Assembly: GCA_027618655.1 (NCBI GenBank)
Contig: JAQCEL010000006.1
Span: forward strand, 1-49,179
Direction of reading: 5' to 3'
DNA: 49,179 nt
Source of the DNA: Pseudomonadota bacterium
GTDB lineage: Bacteria > Pseudomonadota > Gammaproteobacteria > Ga0077536
This document shows, one piece after another, positions 12,153 to 13,413 of this stretch. The stretch's first letter is position 1. Each line of letters starts with the position of its first letter. Under the pieces are notes generated by a model that worked only from the letters and a program-made list of their open reading frames with translations, did not search any database and had not been told where the DNA came from. A program made the translations under genes and the position numbers.

Positions 12153-12190
12153 TTGTGTGATGAATTAACGTAGCAAATCGGAGTAAAACC

Positions 12191-12739
12191 ATGCCGAGAA
12201 TTGAAGAAATTACTGAAGCCGGAGGTGATCCAATCCTGGCCGTCGAACTTGCTGCGGAGCGTGAAGTTTTCGGTGATGTATTGAACCCAACTCGAGCGAT
12301 GGCACACTGCCCGCCAATATTACGCGCCGCAAAGAAGCTGTATGCCTCGATCGATCAATCCGGGTTGTTGCCGGCGAACTTGCTGGCCCTCGTCTACGCA
12401 CGAGTCGCGGCCATCAATGGTTGTCCATTTTGAGTTGACATCAATTCGTTCCGTGCGATCGAACTTGAAAACGGAGAGGCAAAAGTAATTGCGCTGGGGA
12501 ATTGGCGAACGAGTTCTGTGTATAGCGATGTCGAACGACTGGTACTCGATTATGGTGAGAAAATGACCATCACAGGTGAAACTGTCGATGACATTTTGTT
12601 CACGAAACTTCGCGAGCATTTTAGTGAAGCGCAAATTGTCGAATTGACGGCCGGTATCGCGATGGAAAATTTTCGCAGCAAATTCAACGCCCCCTTGAAA
12701 ATCCAAGCGCAGGGTTTCTGCCCGCTGCCGGCACGCTAG
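12191..12739 (+). CDS. AhpD/carboxymuconolactone-decarboxylase-family protein with in-frame TGA at the second active-site Cys (candidate selenoprotein)
   Basis: 182 codons read through one TGA at 12431-12433 (codon 81). The family motif CxxC appears as NGCPF-TGA-VDINS, so the stop replaces exactly the second redox Cys; Cys78 is the first. The frame stays open for another 102 codons with normal family sequence: NWRTSSVYSDVERLVLDY, then LREHFSEAQIVELTAGIAMENF. The Met start has GGAG seven bases upstream. AhpD-like proteins are disulfide or peroxide reductases, and AhpD-like selenoproteins with Sec in this motif are known from metagenomic surveys. A hairpin that could serve as a bacterial SECIS element follows the TGA. 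TGA is an ordinary stop elsewhere in the window. The alternative is a Cys-to-stop nonsense mutation. greB follows nine bases downstream. Confidence 0.7.
12441..12468 (+). promoter_or_regulatory. Candidate bacterial SECIS hairpin
   Basis: The hairpin directly follows the in-frame TGA. TTCG (12445-12448) pairs with CGAA (12460-12463), then a T-T mismatch, then TC/GA, closing a 5-base loop CGTGC (12452-12456). Outer pairs reach 12441 and 12468 with a bulged T. The guanine 12453 is second in the loop and 19 bases lie between the TGA and it. This fits the usual bacterial rule (G in the first two loop bases, loop 16-37 bases after UGA). An alternative GTTC/GAAC stem keeps the same G near the loop start. 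Folding was judged by eye. Confidence 0.45.
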
Positions 12740-12748
12740 GGATCTGAT

Positions 12749-13249
12749 ATGGGTCGTTGGCGCGCAGCACAAAAGCCATCGTCTCCGTACGTGACGGCGA
12801 GCGGTTATCGAGCTCTGGAAGAAGAAACCGTTAGTATTTGGAAGCGACGACGCGAGGTCGTAAAACATCTAGCTGCCGCCGCGGCCGAAGGCGATCGTTC
12901 GGAGAACGCTGAGTACATTTATCGCAAGAAAGAGCTGGCAGAAATCGATCGCCGGATCCGTTATTTGCAGCGGCGTATGCCAGAACTGAACGTTGTGACC
13001 TCAGGCCCGTCGGATCCGGAGCGAATATTTTTCGGAGCGACTGTCGAGCTTGAAAATGAAACGGGTGAGATCGCAACTTATCGCATCGTTGGTAGCGATG
13101 AGATTGATGGCGCTCGCGGTTGGATCAGTATCGACTCCCCAATGGCGCGGGCGCTCATGAAGCACGGCGTCGACGATGAAGTCGTCGTACGCATTGCGAG
13201 CGGCGATCAGCATTACGTGGTCGTTTCAGTCGTCTATGCTGATAGTTAG
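12749..13249 (+). CDS. greB: Transcript-cleavage elongation factor GreB
   Basis: 166 residues. GreB enters the RNA polymerase secondary channel and stimulates cleavage of backtracked RNA. The N-terminal coiled coil carries the tip motif GDRSENAEYIYRKKE with the acidic residues that coordinate the catalytic Mg, then REIDRRIRYL-like ELAEIDRRIRYLQRRM. The C-terminal FKBP-like domain has FFGATVELENE, YRIVGSDEID and the strongly conserved WISIDSPMARAL. It has a short N-terminal extension (MGRWRAAQKPSS) compared with E. coli. Nine bases separate it from the CMD-family gene, so the two are likely co-transcribed. The ribosome site is weak (AGGGA). Its stop codon touches the start of the palindromic element. 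Confidence 0.95.
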   Translation: MGRWRAAQKPSSPYVTASGYRALEEETVSIWKRRREVVKHLAAAAAEGDRSENAEYIYRKKELAEIDRRIRYLQRRMPELNVVTSGPSDPERIFFGATVELENETGEIATYRIVGSDEIDGARGWISIDSPMARALMKHGVDDEVVVRIASGDQHYVVVSVVYADS

Positions 13250-13407
13250 GACCCTAGTCGAAATTATCTAGTCAACACGAGGGTGTTCCTGAGTGGTTGC
13301 TGCTAGACGCGTTTCGCGGGCAATAGCGGGCTTGTTGCCAAAAAACGCAACGCCGCAGCGACTGCCCAGGAGCAGCCGAATGTATAGATAATTTCGACCA
13401 GGGTCCT
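13248..13407. repeat. 160-bp imperfect palindromic element between convergent genes
   Basis: The 23-bp ends (13248-13270 and 13385-13407) are inverted repeats with a single G/T-type mismatch. The similarity continues inward with gaps: CCTGAGTGG...GCTGC faces the complement of GCAGCGACTGCCCAGG, then GCGTTT faces AAACGC, and GGCAA faces TTGCC at the tip. The whole interval can fold into one long hairpin. It begins at the greB stop codon and ends seven bases before the end of the minus-strand isomerase gene. It could be a small palindromic mobile repeat or a large bidirectional terminator. No second copy was noticed in the window. Confidence 0.65.
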
Positions 13408-13413
13408 TAGTCG

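Follow-up and report, generated by a model that had tools for sequence, protein, structure and literature searches.

The window analysed here, a whole stretch of 49,179 nucleotides (contig JAQCEL010000006.1 of the Pseudomonadota assembly GCA_027618655.1), contains on its forward strand a gene with one conspicuous anomaly. A single frame extends from ATG to TAG (12191-12739, the TAG at 12737-12739) and contains a lone internal stop, the TGA of codon 81 (12431-12433), within the motif NGCPF-TGA-VDINS. Is this TGA the product of a mutation or of a miscall, or is it a codon for selenocysteine (Sec)? A sequence-only reading of the window had proposed the latter, with a directed insertion of Sec, and had pointed to a good ribosome site and to one frame passing through the TGA. 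Both features are present: a GGAG motif (12180-12183) lies 7 nt upstream of the ATG, and most orthologues have a GGAG or AGGAG of similar kind ahead of their start. Translated with Sec at codon 81, the gene would encode 182 residues of a CMD/AhpD-fold selenoprotein, an assignment drawn from the translation, the models PF02627 and NF053654 and the fold match. The Cys78 codon (12422-12424), first residue of the CxxU motif, is invariant among orthologues. The Cys177 codon (12719-12721) belongs to the conserved C-terminal motif QGFC; it is invariant in the Sec orthologues and this Cys is also present in many Cys homologues. On the minus strand, an open frame of 182 codons (12320-12868) runs antisense to the gene; several orthologues also have it open, at 33-42% identity. 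This antisense frame was set aside as a gene and is likely a by-product of the codon constraint on the sense strand.

The TGA was found at codon 81 in all nine sequences compared, the window and eight orthologues, which come from several genera and MAG lineages; where measured, their identity to the window is 62-71%. The search of 96 related genomes recovered four orthologues (64-71% identity), each with the TGA inside, and the closest homologues found elsewhere in the class, in other families (36-41% identity), have no TGA. In the alignment, the TGA occupies the same codon in all orthologues and a Cys is found there in distant homologues. An independent search of GTDB contigs returned seven loci, four of them on the same contigs as in the 96-genome search, and the TGA was at codon 81 in 7/7; this search used two peptide patterns, one of which spelled Cys at codon 81 and thus favoured the Cys forms. 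The named GTDB loci belong to MAGs of Gammaproteobacteria, Chromatiales, Proteobacteria, Alphaproteobacteria and Myxococcota. The ninth sequence (L106) also has the TGA; its source is a genome from the same phylum, assembled in one contig and rated 100% complete.

The codons located after the TGA behave as coding sequence. Between the first five sequences, over 99-101 codons 3' of the TGA, dN is comprised between 0.08 and 0.27 and dS between 1.06 and 2.86 where computable (dS being saturated in the other pairs). Synonymous changes are thus numerous and dN is far below dS where computable, a pattern that clearly indicates purifying selection on the sequence 3' of the TGA. Because this selection acts on codons placed after the TGA, the frame beyond it is presumably translated. 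These data bear on the simplest alternative, a pseudogene or a sequencing error, according to which a Cys codon became nonsense, through either a mutation or a miscall, in a gene that ends at codon 80. A single change is sufficient to convert TGC or TGT into TGA, and the window comes from one contig of a draft assembly (4.36 Mb in 327 contigs, 94.5% complete). However, independent assemblies share the codon-81 TGA: the same change would have to be common to nine sequences that diverge to 62-71% identity where measured, one of them from a complete one-contig genome, and to coexist with the constraint past the TGA, with a covarying hairpin and with a full Sec machinery (both described below). 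We consider this alternative extremely improbable, in agreement with the sequence-only reading, which had judged a random nonsense change the less likely explanation.

A bacterial SECIS element was expected immediately downstream of the TGA, and the sequence-only reading had drawn one as a hairpin spanning 12441-12468, with a G second in its loop and 19 nt between the TGA and this G. Such a hairpin can form, and the distance from the TGA to G12453 is exactly 19 nt, the loop starting 18 nt downstream of the TGA. The lower part, in which TCAA (12441-12444) pairs with TTGA (12465-12468), did not hold up, as it is found in the window and in two or three relatives only. Conservation across orthologues is restricted to a core (12446-12462) formed by a six-position upper stem (12446-12451 with 12457-12462) and the five-nucleotide loop CGUGC (12452-12456); in the window, five of the six positions pair and the other is a U-U mismatch. 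The upper stem and the 5-nt loop are at a fixed distance from the TGA in all orthologues, with a G always second in the loop and followed by a U. Pairing reaches 92.6% of the cells in the nine sequences, and compensatory changes were detected at three pairs: a G-C becomes C-G by changes on both sides of the stem in L055 and L106, a U-A becomes G-C in the same two sequences (G-U in L052), and another U-A becomes A-U on both sides in L056. With eight sequences, 44 of 48 cells are paired, compared with a mean of 29.0 in synonymous recodings that keep the proteins, none of 20,000 such recodings reaching 44; since the test takes the sequences as independent, this figure is not a strict probability. 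When the recodings were given free choice of register, the maximum was 40 paired cells in 3,000 trials, and sliding the partners by 1-3 columns lowered the pairing to 22-50%. The conservation of synonymous sites codon by codon was too coarse a measure, with three usable columns inside the hairpin.

Folding of the hairpin region, which had been suggested as a check, gave no support. The single-sequence fold has z values between -0.4 and +1.1, no better than shuffles, and in longer stretches a competing fold is preferred over the hairpin; this approach was dropped as evidence in favour of the comparative tests. The published model of bacterial SECIS elements requires a loop of 3-9 nt with a G in the first two positions, a distance of 16-37 nt from the UGA, an upper stem of 4-16 bp and a minimum free energy no higher than -7.5 kcal/mol (PMC13188914). 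The window hairpin has the geometry of this model (a 5-nt loop with G in second place, 18 nt after the UGA, and a stem of six positions with one U-U mismatch) but, at -5.7 kcal/mol, misses the energy threshold. The hairpins of orthologues L051, L055 and L056 have energies of -9.0 to -9.5 kcal/mol and those of L053 and L054 are weaker. A subset of putative SECIS elements is reported to fail the model (PMC13188914). Judged from the comparison across orthologues, which provides the support for the hairpin, we consider that the SECIS element is real. Energy filters applied to single sequences would miss the SECIS of this subfamily.

The genes whose presence the sequence-only reading had wished to see checked were all detected in the genome of the window. 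The genes selA (588 bits) and selB (435 bits) adjoin on contig C161, and tRNA-Sec (selC, anticodon TCA) lies beside them, so that the three form one selA-selB-selC cluster; selD (300 bits) is on a separate contig. With a score above the cut-off, selA was found in the genomes of eight of the nine sequences with the TGA (window, L021 to L024, L052, L056 and L106). It was not found in the genome of orthologue L055 (JAFAKN010000265.1), for which a completeness figure is lacking. L055 has the TGA and a perfect hairpin despite the lack of a selA match, and this MAG may be incomplete or mixed. Among the 23 searched genomes (19 + 4) whose homologue has no TGA at this position, only one, G170, has selA above the cut-off, and G178 shows a weak match below it; for about a dozen of these 23 homologues the alignment or translation shows the Cys directly, and for the others the observation is limited to the lack of a stop. 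A plain Cys at codon 81 is thus restricted to distant homologues, nearly all from genomes without selA, whereas the TGA and the hairpin are both kept by close relatives (9/9 counting the window). The Sec and Cys versions of one enzyme track the presence of selA. In the G170 homologue (L075, contig C1), the CxxC motif carries a Cys, and a TGA closes the frame at the place of the QGFC motif of its relatives. This TGA was considered as a second Sec form and rejected: it is C-terminal, behind an active site that has Cys, and is probably an ordinary stop, a second recoding event being less likely.

The TGA could also be read without selenocysteine, by general readthrough or by a reassignment to Trp or Cys in this genome, as the frame is open whatever residue the TGA encodes. 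Against this stand the other genes of the window: seven of the 38 larger ORFs counted end in TGA, which bears out the earlier statement that TGA is a normal stop elsewhere in the window. The tRNA-Sec with its TCA anticodon, SelA, SelB and SelD are moreover all present, the TGA stands in for a Cys that belongs to a CxxC pair, and the orthologues conserve a SECIS-like hairpin. We give this reading hardly any credit. Taken with a probability of about 95%, the gene is a genuine selenoprotein gene in which the TGA of codon 81 is read as Sec, the insertion itself being what we infer from the sequences. SelB loaded with Sec-tRNA(Sec) would bind the SECIS hairpin, whose loop lies 18 nt downstream of UGA81, and insert selenocysteine.

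The affiliation of the protein was searched with family models. The CMD model PF02627 is passed with 27.8 bits for a gathering score of 23 (22.9-23 bits in the genome scan). The peroxidase-related model TIGR01926 gives 39.2 bits and does not reach its curated cut-off of 81.8. The highest score, 138.3 bits over residues 1-175, is obtained with NF053654 ("YciW-related (seleno)protein", GroundWater_YciW), a model with the same CMD architecture that is named as having selenoprotein members. Despite this full-length match, the window protein and the four orthologues scanned (131-140 bits) stay well below the curated cut-off of 310. By these scores, the clade is apparently a distinct and unnamed sister subfamily of NF053654, outside that model. 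AhpD-like and CMD-like selenoproteins with a CxxU motif (TIGR01926 / PF02627) have been catalogued since 2005, in the Sargasso Sea and later (PMC1088965, PMC13188914), and together with the sister family in NCBIfam they substantiate the earlier remark that such proteins exist in metagenomes. The window protein shares with them the CMD/AhpD superfamily, the Sec at the second position of CxxU and a bacterial SECIS directly downstream, but differs by a score below the TIGR01926 cut-off and by the C-terminal QGFC. Our literature search, itself incomplete, found no paper on this subfamily.

Three further CMD/AhpD genes of the same genome have a TGA at the second position of CxxU, in the motifs NSCHYU, NQCHLU and NACFYU (L093, L094 and L099; C48:5924-6277, C49:9936-10190 and C118:6698-6835). 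The C118 gene reaches the end of its contig and encodes a long extension at the N-terminus. The AhpD-like paralogues have IPTH after the Sec where the window protein has VDINS, and their SECIS loop is GGUCG/U at +21 whereas that of the window gene is CGUGC at +18. More than ten homologues in the same bacterial family carry a TGA at the same motif position, and most of the TGA-bearing paralogues and homologues show a clear hairpin. According to the 96-genome search, many members of this bacterial family hold further TGA-containing AhpD-like genes. Because such genes occur both here and in relatives, the family uses Sec widely in the CMD superfamily.

AlphaFold2, with eight sequences, gave an all-helical model of moderate quality, with a mean pLDDT of 77, around 90 in the core and low at the C-terminus. 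The best PDB matches of this model with Foldseek, all with a probability of 1.00, were in order the debrominase Bmp8 (6ohj), PA0269/AhpD of Pseudomonas aeruginosa (7xw1) and Atu0492 (2gmy), the AhpD of M. tuberculosis being more distant. The protein is therefore predicted to have the all-helical CMD/AhpD fold. By sequence, the closest solved structures are Atu0492 and PA0269 (7xw1, 2ijc, 2o4d). They share with the window protein the INGCxxC motif and the fold, but are shorter, have Cys in place of Sec and have a His four residues after the second Cys, a position occupied in the window family by Asn (Asn85). In the AhpD of M. tuberculosis, a Glu and a His assist the cysteines. These assisting residues appear to be absent around the CxxU motif of the window protein, and a peroxidase activity is uncertain for this reason.

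The product would thus be a 182-residue all-helical protein of the CMD/AhpD fold in which Cys78-x-x-Sec81 forms the redox pair. The selenol of Sec81 would most likely carry out the attack and so reduce a peroxide or a disulfide (we infer both the order of Sec and Cys and the substrate). Cys78 would resolve Sec81 as a selenenylsulfide, which would then be reduced by a cellular thiol system. The conserved Cys177 may take part in the redox reaction as a possible third redox residue. Judging by its family, the protein is reasonably likely to be an oxidoreductase that uses Cys78 and Sec81 on peroxides or disulfides, the most probable of the activities considered. The selenoprotein could instead be a reductive dehalogenase similar to Bmp8 (6ohi, 6ohj), or some other CMD-superfamily enzyme with a nucleophilic mechanism. 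Bmp8 is the first fold match, is among those spanning nearly the full length, has a similar length and also matches by sequence (1.1e-7), and Sec-based reductive dehalogenation is known from deiodinases. However, by sequence the short AhpD-like proteins Atu0492 and PA0269 score better, the identity with Bmp8 is only 22%, Bmp8 has Cys for Sec and other residues after the motif, and no halogenation genes were found among the ten neighbours scanned. We consider this whole group of activities unlikely. Its more specific form, a reductive dehalogenase with the CMD/Bmp8 fold that depends on Sec and in which Sec81 or Cys78 would attack the halogen atom as in deiodinases, seems more doubtful still; if true, it would represent a second, independent fold of Sec dehalogenases.

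Concerning the surroundings, a gene for an elongation factor of the GreA/GreB type (12749-13249, forward strand; PF01272 and PF03449) begins 9 nt downstream of the selenoprotein gene. It is possibly co-transcribed with it, as a neighbour and not as a part of the mechanism. This gene is followed on the opposite strand by a DsbA-type gene, and a nitrilase-type gene, a GST and an aminotransferase lie upstream in divergent orientation. Only two genus mates (L050 and L051) share this gene order, so the neighbours are little guide to function. The interval separating the GreA/GreB-type gene from the DsbA-type gene holds a MITE-like element (13248-13412, about 160 bp) with 23-nt terminal inverted repeats that are 96% complementary. 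Eight near-full-length copies, this one included, are dispersed across the genome with 92-100% identity, besides several fragments, some at contig ends.

An annotation unaware of the recoding would cut the gene at codon 80 or label it a pseudogene. The finding leaves the understanding of selenocysteine insertion and of the family unchanged. What the gene defines is an apparently unnamed Sec subfamily of the CMD superfamily, distributed in uncultured Gammaproteobacteria and in some other proteobacterial and Myxococcota MAGs.
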